From Cherax quadricarinatus (lineage: Eukaryota > Arthropoda > Malacostraca > Decapoda > Parastacidae): a stretch of 64,000 nucleotides of DNA. The DNA lies in the NCBI RefSeq assembly GCF_038502225.1, contig NC_091323.1, positions 28,232,345 through 28,296,344 on the forward strand. The letters run 5' to 3'. Below are positions 24,839 through 64,000 of this stretch, piece by piece. Position 1 is the stretch's first letter. Each line of letters starts with the position of its first letter. The position numbers and the translations under genes were made by a program. Below the pieces are notes generated by a model, which saw nothing but the letters and a program-made list of their open reading frames with translations, was not told where the DNA came from and made no database searches.

Positions 24839-26016
24839 CAGTAACTGGTGTGGTAGGTAAGACACAAAGGCAACAGTTAGGCAACTTTATTCCGAAATGT
24901 TTCGCCTACACAGTAGGCTTCTTCAGTCGAATACAGAAAGTAGGCAGGCACAGTAGAGATGTGAAGACGATGTAATCAGTCCATCACCCTTGAAGTCGTA
25001 GAATTTGAGGTTGTCAGTCCCTCAGCCTGGAGAGTTCAGTTCCATAGTCAGGAACTATCTGAAGATCAAGCGACAGTGCGGAGACTTAAATACTGTCGGA
25101 AGGAGAGGTGCATAGTAGTAGTAGTAGTAGTAGTGAGAATGTAGCCACTGATAGGTCAGGTCCCTCTCAGATCCAACAGTTCTCACTTGAAAGGGTTGTC
25201 CAAGGTGTTTTCTGTACCAAGAGGCCATGTGTTGCAGTGTCTGACAAGATGAACATCAAAATGGTATAAAATACCGACAGGTTGGTAGGTAAGACACAAA
25301 GGCAACAGTTAGGCAACTTTATTCCGAAACGTTTCGCCTACACAGTAGGCTTCTTCAGTCGAATACAGAAAGTAGGCAGGCACAGTAGAGATGTGAAGAC
25401 GATGTAATCAGTCCATCGCCGCGAAGTCGTGGGGTGGGTTGTCGGTCCTCGGCCTGGAGGTTCGGTTCCGCAGACTATGGAACTGAACTCTCGAACTGGC
25501 TGACAACACTGACTTCAAGTAATCGGGCTTTGATCTTTACATCTCTGCAATGCCTGCTACTCTGTGTTCGACTGAAGCCTATGAATGTGAGCAAAAAACT
25601 TGTTGAGTTGCTAATATTGCGTACCAACCTGTCGGTATTACATACCATTTGACCTGTTCATCTTGTCGAACACTATTTTATCAACCTGTGGCCTGAGCAG
25701 CTACCAGCAGACAACTGCTGGTATTGGATCTGAAGGACCTGTCGTGGCTATTCTCACCTGCTACTGCTACTATCCTCTCCGACAGTATTGAAATCTCACA
25801 TATCCTGATCTCAGATGGCTGACTATGGGACTGAGCTCTCAGGCTGACTGACCTCAAGTACCGCTTCAAGGTGATGAGCTGACCACATCGTCTTCTATCT
25901 CTGTATTCGACAACTGCATGTAGGCAACAATTCAGGGTAAAGACCTTACATGTTGTATGTCTTACCTACCAACCTGTCGGTATTTTATACCATTTTGATG
26001 TTCAGTAACTGGTGTG
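24839..26016 (+). mobile_element. PLE family A fold-back insertion with 14-bp TSD
   Basis: An insertion of about 1150 bp (24853-26002) lies between two copies of CAGTAACTGGTGTG (24839-24852 and 26003-26016). Its left part is two head-to-tail minus-strand pLTR copies about 430 bp apart, each with a hammerhead-like motif (about 24890-24934 and 25323-25362). The first has GAAACA in place of GAAACG. The right part is in plus orientation and ends with the tail hairpin (TGTCGGTATTTTATACC) and GATGTT. The left end begins GTAGGTAAGACA and lacks the tail. Confidence 0.85.
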
Positions 26017-26429
26017 TTGGGGGTTAGGAAAGATGAGAGCTTCGCTCTCTTCCTCGCTCCCTTTTCATCTTTTTTCATTTTCCTATTTCCCATCTTCTAA
26101 CCTTTCCTTCTCTTTATTATCCTCTTCTCCACTCCTCCTAATCTTCATATTTAATCATAATTTTACTATTATAAGGAACCTAACATACGAGGTTGGTGAG
26201 TAATTAAGTGACCAAAACGCCCAGCAAAGTCTATATATTAATAGAATTTATAAATGTTGTGTTCCATTAGAAGTAGGAAGCAGCGCTTCTCGATATTTAT
26301 GGAGAAAAATGACATACAGTATAATAAATTTATATTTTATTTGCTGGTTAGTAGTTTTATAGATTTTAAAATTATATACATAGAAACAGTGATAAGTAGA
26401 GCTCTCCAACACAGTAGAACACAGTTCTG

Positions 26430-26763
26430 TAACACAGGTAGGTTGGAGCATTACTTTTCCTGTGGTATTTGGTTACAGATAAAATGGTATACAACAGCAA
26501 GGCAGTAAATGTAAACTTTAAATCAATAGTGTGGCCATTTTCCACGACGGCTTCAGCGGTGGAATTGCTGTGTCGCCTTCGGGAGAGACGCCGCCGTCAG
26601 ATAGGTCGTCCAGAGTTGCCTTACTGAACAACGCGAAGAAACGAGGATAATTTCCAGGTTTCTCAAGATCAAGCTCTGCATCATGTACCTGGTAACTGGG
26701 CGAGAGTAGAGTCCAATATAATATTGAGGATAACACTAAGTAAGTTACTAGGCAGGAGAACAT
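26430..26763 (-). pseudogene. broken paralog of a small membrane-protein gene
   Basis: The reading frame from ATG at 26761-26763 gives 81 codons starting MFSCLV, with a hydrophobic N-terminus and then EKPGN, DDLSDG and SPEGD. It is clearly related to the genes at 53527 and 42095. After SPEGD about 13 bp are missing compared with the 53.5-kb copy, shifting the frame and ending the protein at 26518. In the other frame the homology continues (EAVVENGHTIDLKF) with a second deletion inside the membrane segment. The copy therefore cannot make the membrane anchor. A TATA box lies ~85 bp upstream. Confidence 0.75.
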
Positions 26764-26847
26764 GCTGATGACTCTCCACTCGTTACTCGGAGATATGATT
26801 CAACAGGAATGTGTATCAGAAGTATGTGTATCCACACGAACAAATTT

Positions 26848-26857
26848 CCTTATATAC
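26848..26857 (-). promoter_or_regulatory. TATA box upstream of the broken paralog
   Basis: Minus-strand GTATATAAGG, about 85-95 bp before the ATG at 26763. The two intact paralogs also have a TATA box in a comparable place. Confidence 0.5.
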
Positions 26858-27124: not shown

Positions 27125-27350
27125 ACAAGAATGGTATACAATACCGAGAAGATGAAAACTGAGACACATGTGCAACATCTGGGTGTCTTTATTGTAGACG
27201 TTTCGCCATCCAGTGGCTTTATCAATACAAATTCTAGGACATAATTTGAAGACAGTAGAACTATCTACAAAAGATGAGGAAATCAGTCCCTCAGCCTTGG
27301 AGTTGGTGTGTAGAACACCGTAGTCGTGAAGATTCTTCACAACTACGGTG
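27125..27350 (-). mobile_element. PLE family D pLTR fragment
   Basis: Minus-orientation D pLTR with tail (ATGGTATACAATACCGA) and a hammerhead-like motif at about 27193-27231, ending in the conserved GAGGGACTGATT-type block. The end near 27350 abuts LINE sequence. Confidence 0.75.
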
Positions 27351-28068
27351 ACTACCTTGATGAAGGAATTACAAGTGACATGAGTAAATTTTGTGATGAA
27401 TGGTTTGAAAAACCGACAAGTTGAAGATTGAGACACTTATACAACATATGGGACTGATGAAGCCACTGTGTGGCGAAACGTTTCCTGAATAAAGATTCCC
27501 ATATGTTGATGAACATCAAAATGGTATACAATACCGACAGGTTGTTAGGTAAGACACATATGCAACAGTTAGACAACTTATGTATAAGTGTCTCAATCTT
27601 CAACTTGTCGGTTTTTCAAACCATTCATCACAACTGTCAGACACTGCAGCATCATGGGATCTTGTTACAAAGAATTCTTCAACACTTGTCCAACCTTTGG
27701 ACGAAGACCTACTTCGACTAGTGGATGGTACCACTATGACCCCGCCTCCGCCTGCTTCACCTCACCTCACTACAGTATATAAGCCACGCCTACGGCCCTA
27801 TGCTGTACATTCTACAAGATTGATGGACTGAACACATCGACTCCAGGCTGAGGGACTGATTACCTCAAACTCTTCCTCTCCTTACGCCTTTCTACTTTGT
27901 ATTGGACTGATGAAGCCACTGTGTGGCGAAATGTTTCCTGAATAAAGATTCCCATATGTTGTATAAGTGTCTCAATCTTCAACATGAACAAATTTGTTGA
28001 TGATACAAAGATAGGCCATGTCATTCATTCTGAGGAGGATTCCAATGAACTCCAGGAGGATTTAGGCA
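27345..28068 (+). mobile_element. CR1-like LINE RT piece split by a family B PLE insertion
   Basis: The plus-strand LINE text (GACTACCTTGATGAAGG, then ACATGAGTAAATTT) stops near 27392. It resumes near 27985 with GATGATACAAAGATAGG, the FADDTKIG box (here VDDTKIG), then SEEDSNELQEDL. The inserted block, about 27393-27984, is family B pLTR sequence with A pieces. It carries hammerhead-like motifs at 27451-27485 and 27904-27938 (the latter with GAAATG). An AAATTTGT-like repeat flanks the insertion. The LINE part matches the RT copy at 57.1-58.5 kb. Confidence 0.7.
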
Positions 28069-28912
28069 AGATGTGGAATAAGACACTTATGTACAGTTCA
28101 GGACATTTATTAAAGGAAACGTTTCAACACGAGTGGCTTCTTCAGTCCTAATACATGCGACACTTCACCTGACTCCTGCCACTATATATATGCGTTTTCT
28201 TTTAGTTTTCTCTGTATTAGGACTGAAGAAGATTGATGGACTGACCACATCGACTCAAGGCTGAGGGACTGATTACCTCATTCTCTTCCTGTTCTTCAAG
28301 TTTATCCTTTGCTTGCCCAACCTTTGGACGACGACCTACTTACACAAGTGGCAGGTCCCACTGTGATCCCGCCTCCTCCTGCTTCAACTCATCTGACTGC
28401 AGTATATAAGCCACCTCTCTGGCCCTATGCTGCACTTCCTACAAGAGTGATGGACTGAACACATCGATTCCAGGTTGAGGGACTGATTACCTCGAACTCC
28501 TCCTCTCCTTATCCATTTCTTCTTTGTATTGGACTGATGAAGCCACTGTGTGGCGAAACGTTTCTTCAATAAAGATTCCCATGTGTTGCACAAGTGTCTC
28601 AATTCTTCAACTTGTCGGTTTTCAAAACCATTCACCACATTGTCCTTTGTATGGACTGATGAAGCCACTGTGTGGCGAAACGTTTCCTCAATAAAGATAC
28701 CTAACTGTTGAACATTAAAATGGTATACCTAACTGTTGCATATGTGTCTTACCTAACAACCTGTCGGTATTCTATACCATTTTATTGTTCATACCCAAGA
28801 GTTGCACATGTGTCTAATTTAACAACCATTCATCCACAAGGACTGAAGAAGCCACTCGTGGCGAAACGTTTCCTTTAATAAATGTCCTGAACTGTACATA
28901 AGTGTCTTTTTC
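28069..28912. mobile_element. mosaic of PLE pLTR pieces (C, B, G, A)
   Basis: Joined fragments of several pLTR families. Hammerhead-like motifs occur at about 28117-28155 (minus, C type, stem II broken by CAACACG), 28531-28565 (B, stem I GGA with UCU), 28653-28687 (B/G) and 28839-28874 (C, stem I AGGA with UCCU). B tails with TGTCGGTTTTCAAAACC occur near 28613. A TATATAAG promoter box sits near 28402. Confidence 0.7.
28697..28738. other. 14-bp tail-only micro-insertion between 14-bp direct repeats
   Basis: ATACCTAACTGTTG occurs at 28697-28710 and again at 28725-28738. Between them lie only 14 bp (AACATTAAAATGGT), the exact end of the family A tail. See findings. Confidence 0.6.
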
Positions 28913-29142
28913 CACATGTCAGCTATAATTAATTCTAATAATTTACGAACTATAGACGTCAGGCTTATTGAACGGTAATTTGAAGAAATGGACTTATCCC
29001 CTGACTGAATATCAAAATGGTATACAATTAGCCATCTTCCACATCTCAGGCACAACACCAGTAAGGATGGACGCGTATACGAATGGTATATAATACCGAC
29101 AAGATGAGAGTAAGACACATATGCAACATCTGGGTATCTTTA

Positions 29143-29182
29143 TTGTAGACGTTTCGCCATCCAGTGGCTTTATCAATACAAA
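29143..29182 (-). ncRNA. hammerhead-like motif, family D (inverted copy)
   Basis: Minus-strand counterpart of the motif at 29520, in the inverted 5' pLTR of the D element. Stem I TTGTA/TACAA and stem II GCCA/TGGC are intact. Confidence 0.6.
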
Positions 29183-29381
29183 TTCTAGGACATAACTTGA
29201 AGACAGTAGAACTATGTACAGAAGATGAGGTAATCAGTCCCTCAACCTAGGAGTAGGTGCGAACAGCACCATAGTCGTGGAGATTCTGAAGCAGAAGAAA
29301 GAATCCTGGCGCTTATATAGTAACGTCAGGTGAAGCAGACGAGGGCAAATTCACTGGTAGGCGGGATTCACCTGACGTTAC

Positions 29382-29389
29382 TATATAAG
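29382..29389 (+). promoter_or_regulatory. TATA box, family D pLTR
   Basis: TATATAAG after CGTTAC; the same box recurs at 29797-29804 in the next pLTR copy. It sits about 135 bp before the hammerhead-like motif, placing the motif in the transcript. Confidence 0.6.
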
Positions 29390-29519
29390 CGCCAGGATTC
29401 TTTCTTCTGCTTCAGAATCTCCACGACTATGGTGCTGTTCGCACCTACTCCTAGGTTGAGGGACTGATTACCTCATCTTCTGTACATAGTTCTACTGTCT
29501 TCAAGTTATGTCCTAGAAT

Positions 29520-29558
29520 TTGTATTGATAAAGCCACTGGATGGCGAAACGTCTACAA
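29520..29558 (+). ncRNA. hammerhead-like motif, family D
   Basis: In order: stem I arm TTGTA; core TTGATAA; one A; stem II arms GCCA and TGGC around CTGGA; GAAAC; GTC; and the second stem I arm TACAA (5 bp pair perfectly). Compared with the canonical hammerhead core CUGAUGA, positions 3 and 8 are U and A, which keeps the 3-8 pair. The cleavage triplet would be GUC. Stem III would be a single C-G plus A-U with no loop, so cleavage in cis as a monomer is doubtful and a dimeric form is more likely. AATAAA follows directly. Confidence 0.7.
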
Positions 29559-29934
29559 TAAAGATACCCAGATGTTGCACATGTGTCTTACTCTCATCTT
29601 GTCGGTATTATATACCATTCGTACACAACTTGTCAGACACTGCAACATCATGGAATCTTAATTCTGAGGACATGTACATAACCTTCACGACTACGACAAC
29701 TACTACAACTAACCCATCTCTTTGGGAAGGACCTACTTCCACTGGGGAATCCCGCCTACCAGTGAATTTGCCCTCGTCTGCTTCACCTGACGTTACTATA
29801 TAAGCGCCAGGATTCTTTCTTCTGCTTCAGAATCTCCACGACTATGGTGCTGTTCGCACCTACTCCTAGGTTGAGGGACTGATTACCTCATCTTCTGTAC
29901 ATAGTTCTACTGTCTTCAAGTTATGTCCTAGAAT

Positions 29935-29973
29935 TTGTATTGATAAAGCCACTGGATGGCGAAACGTCTACAA
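29935..29973 (+). ncRNA. hammerhead-like motif, family D, second tandem copy
   Basis: Same sequence as at 29520, exactly 415 bp downstream. Cleavage at both would release a 415-nt unit. Confidence 0.7.
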
Positions 29974-30214
29974 TAAAGATACCCAGATGTTGCACATGTG
30001 TCTTACTCTCATCTTGTCGGTATTATATACCATTCGTACACAACTTGTCAGACACTGCAACATCATGGAATCTTAATTCTGAGGACATGTACATAACCTT
30101 CACGACTACGACAACTACCTCTACAACTAACCCATCTCTTTGGGAAGGACCTACTTCCACTGGGGAATCCCGCCTACCAGTGAATTTGCCCTCGTCTGCT
30201 TCACCTGACGTTAC

Positions 30215-30222
30215 TATATAAG
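30215..30222 (+). promoter_or_regulatory. TATA box of the pLTR driving the gag-like ORF
   Basis: TATATAAG, identical to the boxes at 29382 and 29797. Here the sequence departs from the pLTR after CTTCTGCTTC and enters a 5' leader for the ORF that starts at 30346, ~125 bp away. Confidence 0.6.
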
Positions 30223-30291
30223 CGCCAGGATTCTTTCTTCTGCTTCACAGTCCGATCATACAGTTGCTCTACACCGCAAGAAGCCTCTCTT

Positions 30292-30308
30292 CGACCCCGT
30301 CGGGGTGT
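30292..30308 (+). promoter_or_regulatory. GC hairpin in the gag leader
   Basis: ACCCCGTCGGGGT can form a perfect short hairpin about 40 bp before the ATG. The family A gag element has the same TTCGA-YCCCCGTCGGGG block in its leader (45396-45412, minus) even though the surrounding leader differs. Confidence 0.5.
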
Positions 30309-30345
30309 AGAATTTATATTCTACAAACGTGATATCCTTTTCACA

Positions 30346-31884
30346 ATGCTGTCGAATCGTGTGAAAATCAAGCCTGTGAATGGTGCAATAAATGACTCCT
30401 CGAAGTTAGCTTTAGCTACCGTCGTTAGGACCTGCCTGCAGGTCAAATTTACGGCAATCCACTCTCTGAAAGACTCCTTCATTGTCGTCTGCACAGATGA
30501 CACGGAAGCACTAAAACTAATGGACGACTCTTCAATCAGGACCCTACAAACACAACAATTCACTCTATCCCCGTCTCCATTCTTGAAGTCGAAACGTTCG
30601 GTCTTTGTGAAAAGACTTGACAATATCGTCACCTCTCTCTCTACTGAAGCACTGAAGACATCTATTGAGGAACAAAACACGTGGGCCTCGGTAGACAGCA
30701 TCTCAAAGATCCCCAACGCCACATCAATGCTAAAGATTACATTCTCAGACATCTCCATGGCTGCCCAAGCTCTCTCTGACGGTCTGGCCATCTCATATTA
30801 CCACATTCACCCAAGTCATATAGAACAAGAACGTTTCACATACATCTCCCACTGCTGGACCTGCTACTCCTATAATCACACCACCAAGGACTGCCCCATC
30901 AAGAATAAGAAGTTTTGTTCAAAATGTGGGAATGATGGACACGATTTCAGATCCTGCACCATTACTACAACACCAACATGTCTTAACTGCAAGGGTAATC
31001 ATCATACCCTTGCAGCTAAGTGCCCACTCAGGAAAGAAATCATATTGAAGAAAACTAAAGTTCTGAAGAAGACCTCCAATTCACCGACATATGCTGCAAT
31101 AACCAAACCACAAACCGACGCCATCAAGACTCTACACGCTAATCTACAGGCACCATCGCCCAGCAACTCCCTCTCTCCACTCCCCGACGGTGCTCCTTCC
31201 AAGGTGCTGTACTGCATGGTGTATGCACACCTTGCAAACGCAGCAAGCCCCGGCACTTTCAACACCACTATTAACGAACTATTCCGTCTGAACAACATGC
31301 CTGCCTTCAATTTTCCGGAATCCACACCTTCAGAAGACATCCTCAAGATCCTTCCCAACGTCCTGAACTTTACTGCACCTACAGACCTGTCTCCTGCCCA
31401 AGCAACTGCTCCTGTAACTTCTATAACCACTTCCACCGCTGACAACGTTGATCAAGTTGCCTCAACCACCGCCTCCCACCTCTCCCAGCCTGCTGTTACA
31501 CAACCATTACACCTCACAGCTGCTCCTGTCGAACCTCAGTCACCTGCTACCACCATTGTAGATTCTCCCAGTGAATCCACTCCAGAAGAGGAAGATAACG
31601 ACGACTCCAGTAAACCCTCATGGGAAAACCTTACCTTTTACACTTCTCCTTCAAATACTGACACCATGACCTGTACTGAACTCTACAAAAGCCTCGGTGC
31701 TGGAACAGTCAAGTATGCATGTGAATCACCGCTTCACTTCACACTCACCCAAGTTCTTGAGTTCATCAAGCCTCTACGTTTCACCTTCAGCAACAAGGCT
31801 AAATTATACCACCTATCTAGAAGCAGCTTCAAAAAGTTTGAAAATGGCTCCATTGCTAACCTGCCTCCTCAGTTACTCCTATAA
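30346..31884 (+). CDS. gag-like zinc-knuckle protein of PLE family D (512 aa)
   Basis: Intact ORF starting MLSNRVKIKP. Residues 170-226 hold three zinc knuckles: C170-X2-C173-X4-H178-X4-C183, C191-X2-C194-X4-H199-X4-C204, and a third starting C212-X2-C215 and ending C226. The N-terminal ~165 residues alternate hydrophobic and basic segments (KSKRSVFVKRLD) as in the RRM-like ORF1 proteins of Jockey-type LINEs. A Pro/Thr/Ser-rich linker leads to a conserved C-terminal block (LTFYTSPSN...MTCTELYKSLGAG...KLYHLSRSSFKK). By family it should bind element RNA and form an RNP. It lies between D pLTRs with a TATA box 125 bp upstream and has a 511-aa homolog at 43816-45351. No RT follows. It could be ORF1 of a two-ORF PLE or a captured LINE gag. 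Confidence 0.75.
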   Translation: MLSNRVKIKPVNGAINDSSKLALATVVRTCLQVKFTAIHSLKDSFIVVCTDDTEALKLMDDSSIRTLQTQQFTLSPSPFLKSKRSVFVKRLDNIVTSLSTEALKTSIEEQNTWASVDSISKIPNATSMLKITFSDISMAAQALSDGLAISYYHIHPSHIEQERFTYISHCWTCYSYNHTTKDCPIKNKKFCSKCGNDGHDFRSCTITTTPTCLNCKGNHHTLAAKCPLRKEIILKKTKVLKKTSNSPTYAAITKPQTDAIKTLHANLQAPSPSNSLSPLPDGAPSKVLYCMVYAHLANAASPGTFNTTINELFRLNNMPAFNFPESTPSEDILKILPNVLNFTAPTDLSPAQATAPVTSITTSTADNVDQVASTTASHLSQPAVTQPLHLTAAPVEPQSPATTIVDSPSESTPEEEDNDDSSKPSWENLTFYTSPSNTDTMTCTELYKSLGAGTVKYACESPLHFTLTQVLEFIKPLRFTFSNKAKLYHLSRSSFKKFENGSIANLPPQLLL

Positions 31885-32255: not shown

Positions 32256-32614
32256 TGGTGTATGTGGAAAAAGACACTTATGTACAGTTCAGGACATTTA
32301 TTAAAGGAAACGTTTCGCCACGAGTGGCTTCTTCAGTCCTAATACAGAGAAAACTAAGAAAACACACATATATATAGTGGTGGGAGTCAGGTGAGGTGAA
32401 GCGTGGGTAGAGGTGGTGGTAGTAGTAGTAGTAGTAATGGAACTAAGGAGGTGAGGTTAGAGAGGGACCTGCTGGCATCAAGTAACACCAGTTCCCAGGA
32501 TGGGTAATATCCTCTTGCTTAGTAATTTTGAAATACTGTAACTACCGGATTTTTGCTTTATAGTGTTACTGACAGAAATTAGTGCAGCTTCAATGCATTT
32601 TCTCCTGGTGTATG
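32256..32614 (-). mobile_element. 5'-truncated PLE family C insertion with endonuclease C-terminus
   Basis: Inserted into the second gag copy between TGGTGTATG at 32256-32264 and 32606-32614. On the minus strand it reads the last ~42 residues of a GIY-YIG endonuclease (RRKCIEAALISVSNT... ending at 32478), a noncoding stretch with ACTATATATATG, and a C hammerhead-like motif (32305-32340; stem I AGGA/TCCT). It then has AATAAATGTCC and GTGTCTTTTTCCAC. No tail hairpin is present at either end. Confidence 0.75.
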
Positions 32615-33747
32615 CACACCTTGCAAACGCAGCAAGCCCCGGCACTTTCAACACCACTATTAACGAACTATTCCGTCTGAACAACATGCCTGCCTTCAAT
32701 TTTCCGGATTCCACACCTTCAGAAGACATCCTCAAGATCCTTCCCAACGTCATGAACTTTACTGCTCCTGCAGACCTGTCTCCTGCCCAAGCAACTGCTC
32801 CTGTAACTTCTATAACCACTTCCACCGCTGACAACGTTGATCAAGTTGCCTCAGCCACCGTCTCCCACCTCTCCCAGCCTGCTGTTACACAACCATTACA
32901 TAAGAACATAAGAACATAAGAACGAAGGAACACTGCAGAAGGCCTACTGGCCCATGCGAGGCAGGTCCAAGTCTCCTACCGGCTTATGCCAATGCACCCA
33001 ACCTAGTCAGGTCAGGTCACATTGACTTAAGGGGGGAACACGGCAACCGACCTGGTAGCACAAGCTATCAGGTCTAACTCACACCCACCCACATCTACTC
33101 ATGTATTTATCCAACCTATTTTTAAAGCTACACAACGTTCTGGCCTCTATAACGGTACTTGGGAGTTTGTTCCACTCATCCACAACTCTATTACCAAACC
33201 AGTACTTTCCTATATCCTTCCTGAATCTGAATTTTTCCAACTTAAAACCATTGCTGCGAGTCCTGTCTAGGCTAGATATTTTCAGCACACTATTTACATC
33301 CCCTTTATTTATTCCTGTCTTCCACTTATACACCTCAATCATATCCCCCCTAATTCTACGTCTTTCTAGAGAGTGCAGTTTCAGGGCCCTTAGTCTATCC
33401 TCATAGGGAAGGTTTCTGATACATGGGATCATCTTTGTCATCCTCCTTTGTACATTTTCCAGAGAATTTATATCCATTCTGTAATATGGTGACCAAAACT
33501 GTGCAGCATAATCTAAATGAGGCCTAACCAAGGATGTATAGAGTTGAAGAACAACCTGAGGACTCCTATTATTTATGCTTCTTGATATGAAGCCAAGGAT
33601 TCTATTAGCTTTATTGCGAACACTTATGCACTGTTGTCTTGGTTTCAGATTACTGCTAACCAGAACTCCTAAATCTTTTTCGCAATCCGTAATATTAAGA
33701 TCTACATTGTTAGGTAAGACACATATGCAACAATTAGACAACTTTAT

Positions 33748-33788
33748 TCCGAAACGTTTCGCCTACACAGTAGGCTTCTTCAGTCGAA
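33748..33788 (-). ncRNA. hammerhead-like motif, family A (minus)
   Basis: Stem I TTCGA with TCGGA (5 bp, one G-U); core CTGAAGA; one A; stem II GCCTAC/GTAGGC with loop TGT; GAAAC; GTT. AATAAA follows. Confidence 0.65.
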
Positions 33789-34514
33789 TACAGAAAATAG
33801 GCAGGAACAGTAGAGATGTGAAGACGATGTAATCAGTCCATCACCCTTGTAGTCGTAGAATTTGAGGTTGTCAGTCCCTCGGCCTGGAGAAGTTCAGTTC
33901 CATAGTCAGGAACTATCTGAAGATCAAGCGACAGTGCGGAGACTTAAATACTGTCGGAAGGAGAGGTGCAGAGTAGTAGTAGTGAGAATGTGACCACTGA
34001 GAGATCATGTCCCTCTCAGATCCAACCCTTCTCACTTGAAAAGCTTGTCCAAGGTGTTTTCTGTACCAAGATGCCATGTGTTGCAGTGTCTGACAAGATG
34101 AACATCAAAATGGTATACAATACCGACAGGTTGTTAGGTAAGACACATATGCATATGTGTCTTACCTAACAACCTGTCGGTATTGTATACCATTTTGATG
34201 TTCATCTTGTCAGACACTGCAACACATGGCATCTTGGTACAGAAAACACCTTGGACAAGCTTTTCAAGTGAGAAGGGTTGGATCTGAGAGGGACATGATC
34301 TCTCAGTGGTCACATTCTCACTACTACTACTCTGCACCTCTCCTTCCGACAGTATTTAAGTCTCCGCACTGTCGCTTGATCTTCAGATAGTTCCTGACTA
34401 TGAAACTGAACTTCTCCAGGCCGAGGGACTGACAACCTCAAATTCTACGACTACAAGGGTGATGGACTGATTACATCGTCTTCACATCTCTACTGTTCCT
34501 GCCTATTTTCTGTA

Positions 34515-34555
34515 TTCGACTGAAGAAGCCTACTGTGTAGGCGAAACGTTTCGGA
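34515..34555 (+). ncRNA. hammerhead-like motif, family A (plus)
   Basis: Same motif as at 33748 in the opposite arm of the inverted repeat. Confidence 0.65.
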
Positions 34556-36235
34556 ATAAAGTTGTCTAATTGTTGCATATGTGTCTTACCTAACAACCTG
34601 TCGGTATTGTATACCATTTTGATGTTCAAGATCTACATTATTTAGTTTATATGTGGCATGGTTATTGTCCTGTCCAACATTTAGAACTTTGCATTTGTCT
34701 ATATTAAACTGCATCTGCCACTTCTCCGACCACTGCATCAGTCTATTCAAATCTTCCTGGAGTGCTCGAATGTCCTCGTCAGAATGAATTCGACGGCCTA
34801 TTTTGGTGTCGTCGGCAAACTTGCCGATGTCGCTCTTTATGCCCTCATCTATGTCGTTTATGTAGATTGTGAACAGCAGGGGGCCCAACACTGACCCCTG
34901 TGGAACACCGCTCGTGACGCTTCCCCACTCAGATTTCTCCCCATTTATGCAAACTCTCTGCTGCCTATTTGTCAACCATGCCTCTATCCAGGAAAAAATT
35001 TCTCCTCCTATTCCATGTGCTTTAATTTTCCTCAATAGTCTCTGATGTGGGACCCTGTCAAAAGCCTTACTGAAGTCCATATACACAATATCATATTCAT
35101 TACCATGATCTACCTCCTCAAATACCTTAGTGAAAAAAGTTAATAAATTCGTAAGGCAGGAACGCCCCTTTGTAAAACCATGCTGAGATTCGTTGATTAA
35201 TTTATGCTTTTCAAGGTGGCTACGAACTGCCTCGGCAATTATTGATTCCATAAATTTTCCCACTATGGAGGTTAGGCTTATTGGTCTATAGTTCGAAGCT
35301 AAGGACCTGTCACCTGTTTTGAAAATAGGTATCACATTTGCCATTTTCCACTTATCTGGCACCATGCCAGTTTGTAGTGATATGTTGAAAAGATTAGCCA
35401 AAGGTGTGCTAAGCTCCTCTTTACATTCCTTTAGAACCCTTGCATACAGTTCATCAGGGCCTGGGGATTTGTTAGGTTACACCTCACAGCTGCTCCTGTC
35501 GACCCTCAGTCACCTGCTACAACCATTGTAGATTCTCCCAATGAATTCACTCCAGAAGAGGAAGATAACGACGACTCCAGTAAACCCTCATGGGAAAACC
35601 TTACCTTTTACACTTCTCCTTCAAATACTGACACCATGACCTGTACTGAACTCTACAAAAGCCTCGGTGCTGGAACAGTCAAGTATGCCTGTGAATCACC
35701 GCTTCACTTCACACTCACCCAAGTTCTTGAGTTCATCAAGCCTCTACGTTTCACCTTCAGTAACAAGGCTAAACTATACCACCTATCTAGAAGCAGCTTC
35801 AAAAAGTTCGAAAATGGCTCCATTGCTAACCTGCCTCCTCAGTTACTCCTATAACTCCCATATGTGTTCTACCCTCTGATGTGACCTAGCCTGCTGCCAG
35901 CTACTCAAGATTCAAGACTTCAACTACCACAAGTTCAATGCAACAGTCCCTGCTATTCCTGTTCTCAAGTCTGCACCACGATCGCCTTAGCTGCTGGGTT
36001 AAGCCCTGGCTCTATTTCTCTGACTAAGAACACTCCTCTCCAGAGCTATTCTTCATCTGTCCCATCTTCCCTGCTCATCCCATTGGGATCTTACCTGAAC
36101 TTGTTTGCTTTGCTTTGCTCTTCTGCTTCAGGATCTCCACGACTATGGTGCTGTTCGCACCTACTCCTAGGTTGAGGGACTGATTACCTCATCTTCTGTA
36201 CATAGTTCTACTGTCTTCAAGTTATGTCCTAGAAT

Positions 36236-36597: not shown

Positions 36598-36619
36598 GCA
36601 GTATAATGTGATCCTTTAT

Positions 36620-52360: not shown

Positions 52361-52830
52361 GTTAGGTAAGACACATATGCAACAGTTAGGTATCTTTATT
52401 TCGAAACGTTTCGCCTACACAGTAGGCTTCTTCAGTCGAGTACAGAAAAGTTGATAGAAGCAGAAGATACTTGAAGACGATGTAATCAGTCCATCACCCT
52501 TAAAGTTTTGAGGTGGTCAGTCCCTCAGTCTGGAGAAGAGCATTGTTCCGTTGTCTGAAACAATATGAAGTTGGTACAGACCATCAACTTCGACAACCTC
52601 TACTAGTGAGAACGGCTGGGTTTGAGAGGGACCTGCCCTCCCAAAGCAACCTACGTCTCACCTCCTGGCACTATATAAGGCCCCATTCTGTCACTTCAAC
52701 TTCATATTGTTTCAGACAACGGAACAATGCTCTTCTCCAGACTGAGGGACTGACCACCTCAAAACTTTAAGGGTGATGGACTGATTACATCGTCTTCAAG
52801 TATCTTCTGCTTCTATCAACTTTTCTGTAC

Positions 52831-52869
52831 TCGACTGAAGAAGCCTACTGTGTAGGCGAAACGTTTCGA
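52831..52869 (+). ncRNA. hammerhead-like motif, family A (TCGA form)
   Basis: Stem I TCGA/TCGA with perfect pairing; other parts as in family A. Confidence 0.65.
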
Positions 52870-52916
52870 AATAAAGATACCTAACTGTTGCATATGTGTC
52901 TTACTTCTACTGTCTT

Positions 52917-53008
52917 CCTATTATGTCCTATTATCTGTATTGATAAAGCCACTGGATGGCGAAACGTCTACAATAAAGATATCCAGATGTTGCACATGTG
53001 TCAACTTT
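52917..53008 (+). mobile_element. family D pLTR end
   Basis: Continuation of the D copy split by the A insertion; hammerhead-like motif 52936-52973 with GTC triplet, then AATAAAGATATCC. Confidence 0.65.
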
Positions 53009-54915: not shown

Positions 54916-54934
54916 AAGTGTTTCTGTGTGTATT

Positions 54935-56152
54935 GCATATTTGTCTTACCTAACAACCTGTCGGTATTTTATACCATTTTAATGTTCAATCTGTCAGACA
55001 CTGCAACACAAGGGTATCTTGGTACAGACCTGCAATCAACTTCGACAACCTCTACTAGTGAGAACGGCTGGATTTGAGAGGGACCTGACCTCCCAACATC
55101 TGAGTTCTTACCTCTTCTAGTGACCTACGTCTCACCTCTTGGCGCTATATAAGGCTCCATCCTGTCACTTCATCTCCATATTGTTTCATACTATGGAACA
55201 ATGCTCTTCTCCAGACTGAGGGACTGACCACCTCAAAACTTTAAGGGTGATGGACAGATTACATCGTCTTCAAGTCTCTTCTGCTTCTATCAACTTTTCT
55301 GTACTCGACTGAAGAAGCCTACTGTGTAGGCGAAACGCTTCGAAATAAAGATACCTAACTGTTGCATATGTGTCTTACCTAACAACTTGTCGGTATTTTA
55401 TACCATTTTAATGTTCAATCTGTCAGACACTGCAACACAAGGGTATCTTGGTACAGACCTACAATCAACTTCGACAACCTCTACTAGTGAGAACGGCTGG
55501 ATTTGAGAGGGACCTGACCTCCCAACATCTGAGTTCTTACCTCTTCTAGTGACCTACGTCTCACCTCTTGGCGCTATATAAGGCTCCATCCTGTCACTTC
55601 ATCTCCATATTGTTTCATACTATGGAACAATGCTCTTCTCCAGACTGAGGGACTGACCACCTCAAAACTTTAAGGGTGATGGACTGATTACATCGTCTTC
55701 AAGTCTCTTCTGCTTCTATCAACTTTTCTGTACTCGACTGAAGAAGCCTACTGTGTAGGCGAAACGTTTCGAAATAAAGATACCTAACTGTTGTGATGAA
55801 TGGTTTGAAAAACCGACAAGTTGAAGATTGAGACACTTATGCAGCATATGGGAATCTTATTCAGGAAACGTTTCGCCACACAGTGGCTTCATCAGTCCAA
55901 TACAAAGAGGAAGGCGTAAGGAGAGGAGGAGTATGAGGTAATCAGTCCCTCAGTCCTGATGGACTGAACACATCGACTCCAGGCTGAGGGACTGATTACC
56001 TCATACTCCTCCTCTCCTTACGCCTTCCTCTTTGTATTGGACTGATGAAGCCACTGTGTGGCGAAACGTTTCCTGAATAAGATTCCCATATGCTGCATAA
56101 GTGTCTCAATCTTCATACCTAACTGTTGCATATATGTCTTACCTAACAACAG
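54935..56152 (+). mobile_element. tandem family A pLTR pair with a B insertion
   Basis: Two direct A pLTR copies ~429 bp apart (motifs near 55304-55345, GAAACGC variant, and 55733-55772). Each has tail, TGTCAGACACTGCAACAC, TATATAAGG (55146-55154; 55575-55583) and the GAGGGACTGACCACCTC block. The second is interrupted by a B insertion and ends CTTACCTAACAAC, directly before LINE sequence. Confidence 0.8.
55780..56128 (-). mobile_element. PLE family B fold-back insertion in an A pLTR, 14-bp TSD
   Basis: ATACCTAACTGTTG flanks 55794-56114 (321 bp). The left end has the B tail (GGTTTGAAAAACC), the right end none. Motifs at 55864-55897 (minus) and 56039-56073 (plus; stem I GGA/TCC) lie in the two arms. 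The internal part is deleted down to the GAGGGACTGATTACCTC block. Confidence 0.9.
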
Positions 56153-57552: not shown

Positions 57553-58389
57553 ACGGCCTATCTTTGAAGAATTGAGACACTTATGCAACACATGGGAATC
57601 TTTATTGAAGAAACGTTTCGCCACACAGTGGCTTCATCAGTCCAATACAAAGTAGAAATGGGTAAGGAGAGTAGAAGTATGAGGTAATCAGTCCCTCAAC
57701 CTGGATTCGATGTGTTCAGTCCATCACTCTTGTAGTAAGTGCAGCATAGGGCCAGAGAGGTGGCTTATAAGCCACCTCTCTGGCCCTATGCTGCACTTAC
57801 TACAAGAGTGATGGACTGAACACATCGAATCCAGGTTGAGGGACTGATTACCTCATACTTCTACTCTCCTTACCCATTTCTACTTTGTATTGGACTGATG
57901 AAGCCACTGTGTGGCGAAACGTTTCTTCAATAAAGATTCCCATGTGTTGCATAAGTGTCTCAATTCTTCAACTTGTCGGTTTTCAAAACCATTCATCACA
58001 TCTGTCAGACACTGCAACATCATGGAATCTTGGTACAAAGACTTCAACGCTTGCCCAAACCTTTGGACGATGACCTACTTACATTAGTGGCAGGTCCCAC
58101 TAAGATCCCGCCTCCTCCTGCTTCAACTCATCTCACCGCAGTATATAAGCCACCTCTCTGGCCCTATGCTGCACTTACTACAAGAGTGATGGACTGAACA
58201 CATCGAATCCAGGTTGAGGGACTGATTACCTCATACTTCTACTCTCCTTACCCATTTCTACTTTGTATTGGACTGATGAAGCCACTGTGTGGCGAAACGT
58301 TTCTTCAATAAAGATTCCCATGTGTTGCATAAGTGTCTCAATTCTTCAACTTGTCGGTTTTCAAAACCATTCATCACGGCCTATCTTTG
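57553..58389 (+). mobile_element. PLE family B2 fold-back insertion in the LINE RT, 14-bp TSD
   Basis: ACGGCCTATCTTTG flanks 57567-58375 (809 bp). The left arm is minus-oriented, starts GAAGAATTGAGACAC and has no tail. The right arm holds two direct pLTR ends. Motifs are at 57609-57642 (minus), 57893-57926 and 58270-58303 (plus), with stem I GGA/TCT (one G-U). TATATAAG is at 58142-58149. The right end has the tail GGTTTTCAAAACC and then ATTCATC. The RT was cut just after FADDTKIG. Confidence 0.9.
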
Positions 58390-59640
58390 TATCATCAGCA
58401 AATTTACTCATGTCACTAGTAATCCCTTCATCAAGGTCATTAATGTAAATTGTGAACAGGAGAAGGCCTAAAACTGATCCTTGTGGAACGCCACTAGTGA
58501 CTAATCCCCATTCATATTTCACTTCATTAATGGTAACTCTCTGCTTTCTATTGGTAAGCCATGCCTCAATCCATGCTAGAACTTTACCTCCTATACCGTG
58601 AGCTGCCACTTTTCTTAAGAGTCTCCTGTGAGGTACTCTGTCGAAGGCTTTACTAAAATCCAAATAAACAATATCATATTCCTTATCACTGTCAACTGCC
58701 TCAAATGTTCTATTGAAGAACGTCAGTAAGTTTGTCAGACAGGAACGACCTCTCGTGAATCCATGCTGAGATTCATTTATCAAGTTATGCTCTTCAAGGT
58801 GACTTCTGATAATGTCAGCTATAATTGATTCTAATAACTTGCCCACTATAGATGTCAGGCTTATTGGACAGTAATTTGAAGGAGTGGACTTATCCCCTGA
58901 TTTGAATATAGGAACCACATTAGCCATCTTCCACAACTCTGGCACAACACTGGTAAGGATGGACGCATTGAATATACTCGTTAATGGCTGACTAAGCTCC
59001 ATCTTGCATTCCTTAAGTACCCTTGAAAACAACTCATCGGGTCCCGGGGACTTATTTTGTTTCAGTTTGTCTATCTGTTTAATAACCATGTCCCTCGTGA
59101 CAGTAATATTAGTTAACTTAAATTCATCAGGAACTAAATAATTGTTAATTACTGGAATCTCATTTACATCTTCCTGTGTAAAAACTGACAAAAAAATAGT
59201 CATTAAATAAGGAACACATTTCCAGTTCATTATCCGTCAGCTGTCCATTCCCAGTTTTCAGAGGTCCTACTTTTTCCTTCACCTTCGTCCTATACACTTG
59301 AAAGAACCCCTTTGGATTAGTCTTTGATTCATTAGCAACTCTAATTTCATAGTCACGTTTAGCCTTTCTAATCGCCTTTTTTACTTCTCTTTTAAGCTGA
59401 ACATATTGGTCAGTAAGGTTAACCTCTCCTCTTCTGATGCGCCTATAAATTTCCCTTTTCTCCCCTAATAGATGCTTTAGCCTCCTGTTAACCCATTTGG
59501 GATCGTTATTATTAGACCTAATTTCTCTCTGGGGAATGTATATACTCTGGGCACTGTGTACATTATTAAGAAAACAATCATAAAAGCAGATCCCTTCATA
59601 TTCATAAGTATGATTATCGTCAATAAATTCATTAGCTAGA
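58390..59640 (-). pseudogene. LINE RT domain (frameshifted)
   Basis: The linker (WVNRRLKHLLGEKREIYRRI, KAIRKAKRDYEIRVANESK, GFFQVYRTKVKEKVG) is followed by the palm: VVPIFKSGDKSTPSNYCPIS (Cys where Arg is usual), LDFSKAFDRVPH, GVPQGSVLGLLLF (Leu for Pro) with YINDL, and the catalytic FADDTKIG. A run of seven A (plus strand, about 59191-59197) shifts the frame between the linker and FLSVFTQEDVNEI. With the PLE insertion this makes the copy dead. Confidence 0.85.
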
Positions 59641-59645
59641 TAACC

Positions 59646-60557
59646 TCAATCAAGATTAGACAGATGTTCCCTAAGTCCATTATAATCGGCAGAACGAAAA
59701 TCAGGGATTTTTACTGTATTATCATTATTCTTGCATTCCCAATTAATGCTAAAAGTGATGGATTTGTGATCACTTGCGCCAAGCTCTTCAGGGATCTCCA
59801 GATTATTCACGAGTGTTTCCTTATTTGACAAGACTAGGTCTAGCAAATTATTACCCCTGGTAGGCTTAGTTACGCTCTGTTTCAGAAAACAGTCCTGAAC
59901 TGTTTCCATAAAGTCACTGGACTCTAGATTACCTGTCAAAGAATTCCAGTCAATTTGACTAAAGTTAAAGTCCCCTACTATGACTATGTTACTGTGTCCA
60001 GAATCCCTAACAATTTCGTCCCAAAGAAGTCTCCCTCTATCGTGATCCAAGCCTGGAGGTCGGTATATTACACCTAGAATTAGTTTTTCTTGACCCTCCA
60101 CAAACTCTACCCAAACAGACTCTGTTACTGCTCCATCTATTTTTATACCTGTTTTTATGCAACAATTAATATTTTCTCGAACATACAGTGCAACTCCTCC
60201 CCCCTTCCCATTACATCTATCCACATTGAACAACTTAAATCCCTGAATATTACACTCAGCAGTCATATCCCGACTCTTTAAATCATACCACGTTTCAGTT
60301 AATGCAATGATATCAAAGTTCCCAGCACATGCTACCAAACGTAGTTCATTAATTTTATTTCTTGCACTTCGACTGTTAGCATAAAATACCATCATATGTT
60401 TTTTCTTTTGCACATTTTTCCTATTCATCTTTGTTTTTACACAATTTCTGAAATTATCATTACCCAGAGTTACTCCATGACAGTTACTATTAAGATTCTT
60501 AATATCAGAGCATAAGTCAATATATCCATACTCATTATTTATCATTTCTAAACCCAT
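59646..60557 (-). pseudogene. LINE EEP (APE-type) endonuclease domain
   Basis: The frame carries IIALTETWYD, GGGVALYVRENI, LGVIYRPPG, VGDFNFSQIDW, SVTKPTRGNNLLDLVLSN and GASDHKSI, which are the metal- and substrate-binding motifs of APE-like LINE endonucleases (Glu in TETW, Asp-x-Asn in GDFN, SDH at the end). It should nick target DNA for target-primed reverse transcription. The ORF ends at TGA (59646-59648), where the continuing frame (GYLANEFI) suggests a former TGG. All catalytic motifs look intact. Confidence 0.88.
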
Positions 60558-60571
60558 ACTTCTAACTAATC

Positions 60572-61412
60572 CTAGTTTAAAGTCCTAACAACCCTCTCAA
60601 CTGAGTTAGCAAGAAAACCCACACCTGCCCTGGATAAGTGAACCCCATCCCTGGCATACATGTCATTTCGGCCATAGAAGTTGTCCCAGTTGTCAATGAA
60701 TGGTATTGCATTATCCTTACAGTGTTTATCCAGCCAACAATTAATACCAATTGCTCTGGACAACCATTCATTACCAACACCTCTTCTTGGCAAAATGCCA
60801 CATATAACAGGGCGCCCCCCCCTTCTTCCTAATTATGTCTATAGCTGTCCTGAACTTTCTAACTAAATCCTCACTTCTACGCTTGCCTACATCATTGCCT
60901 CCAGCACTGAGGCAAATAATAGGATTGATCCCATTACCGTTCATGATGTTGTCAAGCCGGCTAACAATGTCCTCCATCCCAGCCCCAGGAAAGCATACCC
61001 TTTGTCTCCTACTCCTGTCCTTCAAGCAGAATGCCCTATCCATGTATCTAACCTGGCTATCCCAAACAACAACAATATTCTTACCTTCCTTGTTGTCGTT
61101 CGTCGTGACGATCCCAGTAGTCGACTCACATTCGTCGGGTAGCACCGAGAATGCGTTGGAGGTTTCCACAGGAGTTTCCACAGCAGTCTCTTTCTTCTTC
61201 ATCGTTTATGGCTTTCCATTCGTCTTTTTGATCATCAACTTCGTCGTCCCCTGCTGTCCAGCCACTGACCACGATCCCTTCTTGACCTGAGGACTCGAAA
61301 CAGGAGGACTACTACGAATCCTCTTGTTTTCCTCTGTCAATCGCCGTATCTCCATCTTCGCTGCCCTCAATTCTTCCTTAAGTTGCTGGTAAAGTTGCTC
61401 GATGGAGGGCAT
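60572..61412 (-). pseudogene. LINE ORF1 with coiled coil and SGNH esterase-like domain
   Basis: Starts MPSIEQLYQQLKEELRAAKM, a charged heptad-rich stretch typical of a coiled coil. An in-frame TAA at 61206-61208 interrupts it. The next part has VWDSQVRYMDRAFC, where the SGNH block I normally has GDS (here WDS), and ICLSAGGNDVG (block III). A frame change at the C8 run 60815-60822 follows, then the end with ARDGVHLSRAG (block V Asp and His). CR1-clade ORF1 proteins carry such esterase domains. At least two breaks and one damaged active-site residue mark it as inactive. Confidence 0.8.
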
Positions 61413-61519
61413 CTTGGTTCAGTCCACGGGAGCAAACAAGACACTTCTTCACAGAGTTAAGTACAGGTCAACTAAAATGCCAAGAACAATGGGCTAGTAA
61501 CTCCTTTCCCTGTACAGAT

Positions 61520-61950
61520 TACTAAAAAGAAGAAAATTGTCATAGTGGGATGTCTGAATGTGCGTGGATGTTGCGCGAATGATAAGAAAGAGATGATTGT
61601 GGATGTTATGAATGAAAAGAAGCTGGATGTCCTGGCTTTAAGTGAAACAAAGCTGAAGGGGGTGGGAGAGTTTGAGTGGAGAGGAATAAATGGGATTAGG
61701 TCAGGGGTTTCAAATAGAGTTAGAGCTAAAGAAGGAGTGGCAATAATGTTGAAGGATAAGCTATGGCAGGAAAAGAGGGAGTATAAATGTATTAATTCAA
61801 GATTTATGTGGAGTGAAATAAAGGTTGGATGTGAAAAGTGGGTTATCGTAAGTGTATATGCACCTGGAGAAGAGAGAAGTGTAGAGGAGAGAGAGAGGTT
61901 TTGGGAATTGTTTGAGTGAGTGTGCGAGGAGTTTTGAACCAAGTGTGACA
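61520..61950 (+). pseudogene. endonuclease fragment of a second LINE type
   Basis: 61545-61919 reads MGCLNVRGCCANDKKEMIVD, LDVLALSETKLKG, EGVAIMLKD and VIVSVYAPGEE, an EEP endonuclease N-terminus of a different LINE type (SETKLKG rather than TETWYD). It continues in another frame as ECARSFEPS and then joins CR1-like RT sequence. Confidence 0.75.
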
Positions 61951-62990
61951 TTAGAGCACTCCAGGATGATTTGAATTGACTCATGCAGTGGTCGGAGAAG
62001 TGGCAGATGCAGTTTAATATAGACAAATGCAAAGTTCTAAATGTTGGACAGGAAAATAACCATGCCACATATAAACTAAATAATGTAAAGTAAAAGGACA
62101 CAAGTGCAACTAATGTGACATTTTTAATGTCACATTAGTTGTCCTTTTACTTTACATATTGTCGGTAATTCTACCAACATTATTACAAACTAAATAATAT
62201 AGATCTTAATATTACGGATTGCGAGAAGGATTTAGGAGTTCTGGTTAGTAGTAATAAAAAACCAAGACAACAGTGCATTAGTGTTCGCAATAAAGCTAAC
62301 AGAATCCTTGACTTCATAGCAAGAAGTATAAATAATGGAAGTCCTCAGGTTGTTCTTCATCTCTATATATCCTTGGTTAGGCCTCATTTAGATTATGCTG
62401 CACAGTTTTGGTCACCGTATTGCAGAATGGATATAAATGCACTGGAAAACGTACAAAGGAGGATGACAAAGTTGATCCCATGTATCAGAAACCTTCCCTA
62501 TGAGGATAGACAGGGCCCTGAATCTGCACTCTCTAGAAAGGCGTATAATTAGGGGGGATGTGAATGAGGTGTATAAATGGAAAACAGGAATTAATAAAGG
62601 GGATGTAAATAGAGTGCTAAAAATATTTAACATAGACAGGACTCGCAGCAATGGCTTTAAATTGGAAAAATTCTGATTCAGAAAGGATATAGGAAAGCAC
62701 TGGTTTGGTAATAGAGTTGTGGATGAGTGGCACAAACTCACGAGTACCGTCATAGAAGCTAAGACGTTGTGTAGTTTTAAAAATAGGTTGGATAAATACA
62801 TGAGTGGGTGTGGGTGGGTGTGAGTTGGACCTGATTAGCTTGTGCTACTAGGTCGGATGCACTGCTCCTCTCTTAAGTGACGTGTCTGACCTCACTAGGT
62901 CAAGGCTTAAGCCTGTGGGAGAATTGGAGCTGCCTCGCATAGGCCTGTAGGCCTGTTGCAGTGTTCCTTCTTTCTTATGTTCTTATATAT
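61951..62990 (+). mobile_element. CR1-like LINE 3' part, plus strand, decayed
   Basis: Starts ALQDDLN in the RT thumb and runs through KPRQQCISVRNKANRI, RPHLDYAAQFWSPYCRMDI and KNRLDKYMSGCGWV. Several stops and small indels are present (e.g. near 62508 and 62672). The 3' UTR ends at GTTCTTATAT. An E element interrupts it. It is the oldest of the large LINE copies by eye. Confidence 0.8.
62073..62198. mobile_element. minimal family E insertion (102 bp), 12-bp TSD
   Basis: AAACTAAATAAT flanks 62085-62186. The insertion is a bare palindrome (GTAAAGTAAAAGG on the left, its complement on the right) with the E tail at the right end. The hammerhead-like part is absent, so this is the smallest complete insertion unit with a clear TSD. 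Confidence 0.9.
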
Positions 62991-64000
62991 ACCGTACGAA
63001 ATAGGCTGAACTCCCCTACAGACTGGACTTATCCATAAATCTTTTTATGGATAGATAAACATATTTTCCATTGACAGTGATGTAAAAGAAATATTTTTGA
63101 CCAAACTTAGAAACTTCACATAACTAACAGTTTTTTTAACCAAATTTCACTCCAGGCTGAAGGACTGACAGTCTCAAATCTACGACTTCAAGGGTGAAGG
63201 ACTGATTACATCGTCTTCACATCTCTACCGCCTACTGTGTAGGCGAAACGTTTCGGAATAAAATAGCCTAACTGTTTCCCATGTGTCTTATCTGCCAAAT
63301 TCTACTAAATATTTATTTAATATTACTTATAATAAATACCACAATTTTTTCGTTATGTTCAGATTGATTTCCGCAGATGCAACACACACACAGACACACG
63401 CACACGCATGTATTGATATATATTAAAATATTATTGAATGCTGAAAAGGCCCTGCCATGCAGCTCTCACCGGGGCCTCCACAGCACGACGCTGCAGATAC
63501 ACTGACCAGAAATATTACCTCATTCCCCAGGTCGTGAAAGGTCGCGCTGGGCCGGGCTTGACCCTGTTCGTGTCGATATTGCCACCGACACACAACTACC
63601 GTTTAATGACTCGGAGATAACAGGCTGGTGCCCAGGGGAGTGTTAACAGAAGGGCGTGTAAAGCTCCGGACCCTTTATAGTTAGCCAGTTATCTATTTTT
63701 GTACTTACTGTACTTCATTACACCCTGGATACGTTACATTAGCCGAGCCGTATCTGCCTCCTCGGCGGCACACTTCTCATTTTGTGGTAGAAGCTGTAGG
63801 GAAAAGACCCCAGCGAGAGATAAGAGGGATACGAGGAAGGGAATTTCGGAGAGAGACACGAGAACTACACATTAAATGAGACAGAAAGGGTAATGAAAGA
63901 AGTCAGTAATATACAGTATGTGATAACAAGAGATGAGCAAATCTGGCGATTGAATGAACACAAGGGACAAGTAATGAGGGCACGTGGGAGCTGCTGAGAA
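62991..64000. other. right-end spacer with one A pLTR scrap
   Basis: About 63150-63300 is a plus-strand A end (GCCTAC/GTAGGC hairpin, GAAACGTTTCGG, AATAAAATAG) whose CUGAAGA core is lost. A CA-rich tract lies at about 63381-63408. No gene is recognised in the rest; the 60-codon ORF at 63438-63620 has no support. Confidence 0.55.

Follow-up and report, generated by a model that had tools for sequence, protein, structure and literature searches.

Here we describe a field of repeats in a 64,000-nucleotide stretch of the Cherax quadricarinatus genome (NC_091323.1, positions 28,232,345 to 28,296,344 of the forward strand; hereafter the window, whose coordinates are used unless stated otherwise). 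Short repeats crowd the right-hand 40 kb of the window, and many of them bear a 50-nt motif built in a constant order: one arm of stem I, CUGANGA or UUGANAA, a single A, a hairpin of 12-15 nt, GAAACGUH, the second arm of stem I and AATAAA. Seven types of the motif (A-G) were recognised, with type A splitting further (subtype A2), and a piece of an open reading frame (ORF) with a GIY-YIG end lies upstream of one of them. We consider these motifs to be, with high probability, minimal type I hammerhead ribozymes of Penelope-like elements (PLEs), with catalysis predicted from their anatomy.

A preliminary description of the window, made from its letters, had counted about sixty such motifs at 24890-63262, in at least six diverged families, with the order of parts given above and with one extra A before stem II; all of this is borne out by the searches reported here. 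Scanning both strands with the pattern NTGANNA-(8-30)-GAAACG gave 55 matches in 24,001-64,000, whereas 30 dinucleotide shuffles averaged 1.6. The whole window held 56, four of which (at 3948, 42102, 47798 and 49801) were set aside as chance or rearranged matches, leaving 52 strict copies, 27 of them distinct; the dropped matches at 47798 and 49801 lie in or next to places matched by our covariance model. This model (R2) was built from 26 of the 27 distinct copies, copy 36469-36519 being excluded from the alignment as its left arm is that of its inverted partner. It returned 66 matches at E ≤ 1 (63 at E ≤ 0.001) spanning 24,884-63,264, including all seven examples singled out earlier.

The extra A follows A9 in all 52 strict copies, AATAAA lies within 18 nt in 49, and a contiguous stem I of at least 3 pairs and a stem II of at least 4 pairs are each present in 51. 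The UH dinucleotide reads UU in 41 strict copies, UC in 7, UA in 3 and CU in 1, and position 17 is U, C or A and never G in 96 of 96 distinct copies (excluding a tandem array, L287, that was also kept out of the 51-copy covariation set below). The hammerhead core (C3U4G5A6N7G8A9...G12A13A14, A15.1-U16.1, H17) is present throughout, in 16 of the 52 strict copies through a compensated U3/A8; TGA, A9 and GAAACG are no independent test of that core, because the scan itself demanded those letters. Genome-wide, the motif was counted 183,103 times with any base allowed at position 3, compared with 2 for the reversed pattern. Among 231 pattern matches in bacterial, archaeal and viral collections, none combined a stem I of at least 4 pairs with a stem II of at least 4 pairs, and R2 run on 87 of the 232 bacterial and viral loci holding the bare pattern (719,667 bases) gave 4 matches at E ≤ 1, the best at E 0.11. 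These collections were rejected as a source of relatives, their pattern matches looking like chance.

Lack of covariation had been named in advance as one part of what would refute the ribozyme interpretation; covariation was found. In the 26 distinct window copies, the hammerhead structure is paired in 88.6% of cells, two-sided changes occur in 9 of the 12 pairs, and the covariation score is 0.423, compared with 0.150 in shuffled and 0.035-0.113 in slid alignments; stem I, stem II and the core 3-8 pair all covary. In 51 non-redundant copies from the window and the genome, stem I pairs 1-4 are formed in 147 of 204 cells (72%; slid, 35-42%), and stem II pairs 3-5 lie above all 2000 shuffles. 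These figures overstate independence, because the copies share descent. Whereas stems I and II covary, stem III does not form in a monomer: GAAACGUH leaves two base pairs (A15.1-U16.1 and C15.2-G16.2) and no loop, and ACGU, being self-complementary, can pair between two copies but not within one.

The 3-8 pair exists in two forms. In the strict copies, C3-G8 occurs 36 times, U3-A8 16 times and a mixed pair never. The exact pattern genome-wide gives 114,055 C3-G8, 61,261 U3-A8, 3,396 C3-A8 and 2,277 U3-G8 matches, so that the mixed forms together number 5,673, about 3% of 180,989, as against the ~42,000 and ~41,000 expected under independence (arithmetic from these four counts). In the non-redundant set the pair is formed in 30 of 51 copies against a shuffled mean of 35.7, which at face value speaks against covariation; this is not a fair sample, because C3-A8 and U3-G8 copies were fetched deliberately, whereas the genome counts are fair. 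The pattern could also reflect one ancient double change that types D, E and F all inherited, in which case it would be weak statistical evidence. We hold this to be a real possibility, if slightly the less probable one: the copies share descent, D and E both have a CUGGA loop, and old type D-like copies with C3-A8 (L280, L314 and L315) could be an intermediate, though they were fetched as C3-A8. Set against it are the covariation of stems I and II, the scarcity of mixed forms and the consideration that even one event would be compensatory at the right place. A single change would bear on this one line of evidence and is compatible with hammerhead ribozymes of PLEs. The same three copies suggest that G8 may have changed before C3; this order is a lead only, because they were fetched for being C3-A8.

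The extra A (A10) is nearly fixed, with 114,055 C3-G8 matches in the genome that carry it and 46 that do not. Many of these 46 share their stem II with a common type and resemble scattered single losses. Both A10 and the U3-A8 pair have precedents among hammerheads. An A10 between A9 and G10.1 is reported for the CChMVd (+) viroid hammerhead, with a moderate loss of cleavage rate (PMC3705267), and several natural hammerheads are reported to covary from C3/G8 to U3/A8, with such pairs shown to be active (PMC3088659).

The motifs can be assigned to a class of element through type C. The window holds an open frame at 39440-39946 (-) with a C-terminal GIY-YIG piece (E 0.00059, 20.5 bits, below the Pfam cut-off of 22.6), upstream of the type C motif at 39250-39299 (-). 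A relative of this piece, P0001 (97% identity over 76%), was searched against its own genome, where 150 matches were scored of 56,107 first-look candidates, several of them in open frames of ~789 residues. One 9.5-kb stretch (L328) contains two oppositely oriented ORFs of 763 amino acids together with a tandem copy truncated at its 5' end. The 763-residue product matches RVT_1 at E 7.8e-11, and its matches in the PDB, on which any kinship to telomerase would depend, are weak (a group II intron-like reverse transcriptase (RT) at E 2.3e-5; telomerase RT at E 0.006-0.008). The tandem copies in L328 are 2,559 bp apart with a hammerhead repeat between them: one type C motif separates the truncated copy from the full one and precedes the ATG of the full copy by 86 nt, and another lies 131 nt past the stop codon of the inverted copy. 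Pseudo-long terminal repeats, tandem and inverted copies and 5' truncation, all described as PLE features (PMC3846280), are thus present. Protein relatives at E ≤ 1e-10 numbered 358 among 7,991 candidates scored; those named among the matches listed come from Cherax quadricarinatus (90% identity over 60% of the query), Amphibalanus, Oratosquilla and Penaeus. Because the type C motif belongs to the terminal repeat that accompanies an RT ORF with a GIY-YIG-like end, the elements are read as Penelope-like, as the preliminary description had supposed, and type C is assigned by sequence to an autonomous PLE encoding an RT with a C-terminal GIY-YIG-like domain. In this element TGTCAAGACACAGTACTAGTG lies immediately 5' of the ATG, and no GACTGANNA hairpin was found in its repeat. 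Beside the autonomous PLE, L328 carries a further ORF at 7481-8278 (+) with coiled-coil and GDSL/SGNH esterase-like matches; esterases of this kind have been noted in connection with rotifer Terminons as well (PMC6431247).

Types A, B, D and G form ORF-less units of ~380-430 bp with similar 5' and 3' ends. Each follows one plan: TGTCAGACACTGCA near the 5' end, a TATA box, one or two GACTGANNA hairpins, the hammerhead, AATAAA and a 3' hairpin TGTCGGT...ACC, so that the 3' end is of the same kind as that of the type C element. Because their ends resemble those of the autonomous element and they lack an ORF, these units are best read as internally deleted PLEs that would have been moved in trans. 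Types E and F are relatives of these elements. TGTCA(A)GACAC sites follow TGTCGG within 70 nt in 13 of 16 cases in the window, as expected of head-to-tail arrays, and two such arrays were found by repeat analysis: ~415-bp type D units at 29367-30249 (+) and ~429-bp type A2 units at 54933-55793 (+). Rotifer Penelope elements are likewise described with a TATA box in the terminal repeat, inverted repeats and palindromic 5' ends (PMC3846280).

The GACTGANNA hairpins lie upstream of the hammerhead, have stems of 4-9 bp (including GAGG/CCTC and GATG/CATC) and are often paired, 28-38 nt from start to start; sites include 24973-25019 (-), 27826-27870 (+), 34427-34480 (+) and 40685-40730 (+). At least 4 stem pairs are present at 66 of the 113 GACTGANNA sites in the window, the remainder of which includes hammerhead cores, and pairing exceeds shuffles in 85 distinct contexts, weakly at pair 4. 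The 3' terminal hairpin is conserved; its inner letters vary yet match (ATTGTAT, TTTTCAA, TCTCTGA and AATTCT), as at 34599-34621, 27606-27627, 40842-40864 and 36559-36577.

In the ribozyme that we propose, stem I would close on the flanks, stem II would be the hairpin and the core would be CUGANGA or the compensated UUGANAA, with A10 after A9. The predicted cut follows GUH and lies 3-6 nt upstream of AATAAA. The active form is likely to be two paired hammerheads, because ACGU cannot loop back on itself; they could meet in cis, between neighbouring copies on one transcript, or in trans, and help from the element's own protein would be an alternative to pairing. Transcripts of tandem units would carry at least two hammerheads, whose pairing could cut both just before AATAAA; such a double cut would free a unit-length RNA and leave the upstream piece without its poly(A) signal. 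Earlier, both the loopless stem III and the extra A had been offered as departures that may require dimer cleavage. The first holds as a reason to expect a dimer; the second does not. The extra A, like U3-A8, is precedented. A bolder form of the idea, to which we give little credence, makes the PLE hammerhead here an obligate two-copy switch, in which A10 and the loopless ACGU would silence single copies and paired copies would cut 3-6 nt before AATAAA. Were this so, ribozyme cutting and polyadenylation would compete for the same few bases, and these elements would have an additional cis element in the paired GACUGANNA hairpins upstream.

Several results weigh against reading the motifs as PLE hammerheads that cleave. 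In the alignment of window copies, one of five covariation measures, the number of further pair types, was 17 compared with 15.7 in shuffles and was reached by 161 of 500 of them; in the larger set, stem I pair 4 is weak (reached by 69 of 2000 shuffles) and outer stem I pairs 5-6 are unsupported. Only in types A, C and E do the predicted monomer folds show stems I and II exactly; those of B, D and G draw core bases into extra pairs, and that of F has a shifted stem I. Fold z-scores of the seven types range from -0.4 to -3.7, with one below -2. Co-folding of two copies gains 5.9-9.9 kcal/mol and was rejected as proof of a dimer, as the copies of 6 of 7 types exchange stem II instead of pairing through ACGU; type A alone pairs its GAAACGUUUC palindrome, so the ACGU dimer is not singled out. 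On the protein side, the GIY-YIG-like match of the 763-residue ORF (residues 654-728) reaches E 0.0045 and 17.7 bits, below the same Pfam cut-off of 22.6. Of the two model searches suggested at the outset, our own covariance model succeeded and Rfam did not: its scan of the window gave no match at gathering score, and at E ≤ 10 over 40 kb there was no hammerhead among 36 rows (35 microRNA families and one CRISPR repeat, many on inverted element copies). In a 131-nt stretch, Rfam Hammerhead_3 aligns with type G core to core with exactly one inserted A, at a score of 14.5 bits compared with a cut-off of 48.5. Low Rfam scores would also be expected of a chance or low-complexity resemblance in abundant repeats; covariation across diverged types, the two matches of the reversed pattern genome-wide and the negative control loci make this explanation scarcely credible.

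The insertion ends count on the same side. Among 129 informative insertions (151 places minus 22 that start at the reference's own end, with copies cut by a locus edge also excluded), there was no pile-up of 5' ends at the predicted cut, with 1 end within 2 nt and 4 within 5 nt, as placed by BLAST extension and possibly off by a few bases. From the 71 ends within -60 to +45 of the cut, local density predicts ~3 and ~7, respectively; of the four ends observed within 5 nt, three map to -4, at CGTTTC. A cut-site pile-up was thus rejected. Cleaved RNA is therefore not the usual template, and most inserted copies seem to derive from uncut RNA. This absence of clustering is consistent with a fold kept as a recognition site for the element's protein, for template binding or priming, with catalysis vestigial or dispensable. 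So is a report on an Anolis PLE in which ribozyme mutants inserted normally in vitro, cleavage depended on protein and no cellular reads started or ended at the cut (PMC11167929). We nevertheless judge a mere protein site improbable, as the conserved single-stranded core, the absence of G at position 17 in 96 copies and the 3-8 compensation suit catalysis and not a simple binding hairpin. Predicted PLE hammerhead ribozymes remain the explanation that we favour.

The R2 matches are distributed as follows, by type. Type A motifs lie at 24884-24936 (-), 25316-25368 (-), 33741-33793 (-; an example cited in the preliminary description), 34510-34562 (+), 38960-39012 (+), 39954-40006 (-), 47695-47747 (+) and 50959-51011 (+), with a decayed copy at 48071-48123 (-), a 5'-truncated copy at 49711-49763 (+) and a decayed type A-like copy at 63223-63264 (+; E 0.00041). 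Subtype A2 is found at 38572-38624 (-), 41362-41414 (+), 43198-43250 (-), 49570-49622 (+), 50386-50438 (-), 50797-50849 (+), 52393-52445 (-), 52825-52877 (+), 55299-55351 (+; ACGC for ACGU) and 55728-55780 (+), and decayed A2-like copies at 45693-45732 (+; E 0.0082) and 49181-49215 (-; E 0.002). Type B occurs at 27444-27494 (+), 27897-27947 (+), 28524-28574 (+), 40306-40356 (+), 40547-40597 (+; decayed), 48248-48298 (-), 48717-48767 (-), 55855-55905 (-), 56032-56082 (+; cited example), 57600-57650 (-), 57885-57935 (+) and 58263-58313 (+), together with a decayed B-like copy at 42858-42908 (+; E 0.007). Besides the cited type C example downstream of the GIY-YIG piece, type C is present at 28106-28155 (-; decayed stem II), 28833-28882 (+), 32297-32346 (-), 40068-40117 (+; 5'-truncated) and 50293-50342 (-).

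Type D motifs, all U3-A8, are at 27185-27235 (-), 29136-29186 (-), 29515-29565 (+; cited example), 29930-29980 (+), 36231-36281 (+), 51695-51745 (-) and 52930-52980 (+), and type F motifs, also U3-A8, at 36612-36664 (-; cited example), 37203-37255 (+), 51507-51559 (+) and 51966-52018 (-). Type G is located at 28646-28696 (+), 40754-40804 (+; cited example, and the one aligned by Rfam Hammerhead_3), 40883-40933 (-), 41008-41058 (-) and 41493-41543 (-), with a rearranged copy at an inverted junction (47795-47838 (+)) and a partial match inside a type G copy (49821-49841 (-); E 0.00098). Type E occurs at 36436-36486 (-) and 36469-36519 (+), the halves of an inverted pair, at 37398-37448 (+; U3-A8), at 51082-51132 (+; without AATAAA) and at 52185-52235 (-; U3-A8, cited example) with its inverted partner at 52232-52282 (+). 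It recurs as head-to-head inverted hammerhead pairs 30 bp apart, as at 36436-36519 in the window and at C1:5524/5554, 4617925/4617955, 4910546/4910576 and 7411792/7411822 elsewhere in its own genome, as if the palindrome itself spreads or arises at one spot.

A few further sequences resemble the motif. A remnant at ~40113-40230, in inverted arrangement and cut inside stem II (GGTCC...GGACC GAAACGTTTTCTAATAAA, minus strand), may be an eighth hammerhead type. An isolated UUGACAA-T-GGTC...GACC-GAAACGUC at 3948-3976 (+), outside the repeat field and with neither stem I nor AATAAA, gave no match with R2 and is probably due to chance. The array L287 (own genome, C1:100258850-100259250) is a small tandem array of 32-bp units, each with a hammerhead-like core and stem II (TTGACRA A GCTCTACACAGAGC GAAACGTR), some units reading GUG. 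Among other retroelement pieces in the window, an ORF at 30184-31884 (+) contains CX2CX4HX4C zinc-knuckle letters, as read by eye, and has no Pfam match; two RVT_1 pieces lie at 34586-35476 (-) and at 58361-60584 (-), the latter with an endonuclease domain upstream. Most of the first 24 kb consists of satellite arrays, at 1-2906, 5296-6356, 7832-9411, 10980-21829 and 21899-23814; 41 bp x 265 and 53 bp x 20 are examples.

With ~183,000 matches, two cores, an A10 of known effect and short units, this genome offers natural material on dimer or protein-assisted cleavage. It also allows the use of cleaved RNA by insertions to be tested, a prediction that fails on the 129 insertion ends. Since this form escaped the Rfam hammerhead models in the window, annotation that depends on those models may count too few such ribozymes.

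Minimal type I hammerheads of Penelope-like elements were reportedly described by Cervera and De la Pena in 2014 and by Lunse et al. in 2017. The CChMVd (+) viroid hammerhead, by comparison, has a full stem III. PLE hammerheads without helix III are reported in terminal repeats, with dimer cleavage proposed, and loop-loop contacts are said to be missing in the minimal forms (PMC6155905, PMC7761336); the motifs described here share the terminal-repeat location and the absent helix III, and differ in that A10 is nearly fixed and C3-G8 and U3-A8 coexist in one genome. As in Anolis Poseidon PAc, for which the C3-G8 pair is reported to have been tested by a double mutant, a PLE hammerhead stands at the start of the ORF region; according to that report, the ORF begins at stem II, whereas here the ATG of the next tandem copy is 86 nt downstream of the motif (PMC11167929). 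The extra A between A9 and G10.1 is shared with the CChMVd (+) hammerhead (PMC3705267), which belongs to a viroid rather than a retroelement. The change from C3/G8 to U3/A8 is shared with natural hammerheads for which several examples are given (PMC3088659), as against 61,261 pattern matches in one genome here, and we make no claim of novelty for A10 or U3-A8 among PLE hammerheads. Short non-autonomous tandem units with type I hammerheads are also reported for metazoan non-LTR (long terminal repeat) retrozymes (PMC7229834), whose hammerheads are described as canonical type I, whereas the units here, of ~380-430 bp, have the loopless PLE form and PLE-like ends. Thus, the kind is already known, helix-III-less PLE hammerheads having been described before; what is unusual is the scale, the near-fixed A10, the two compensated cores side by side and the short PLE-derived units.

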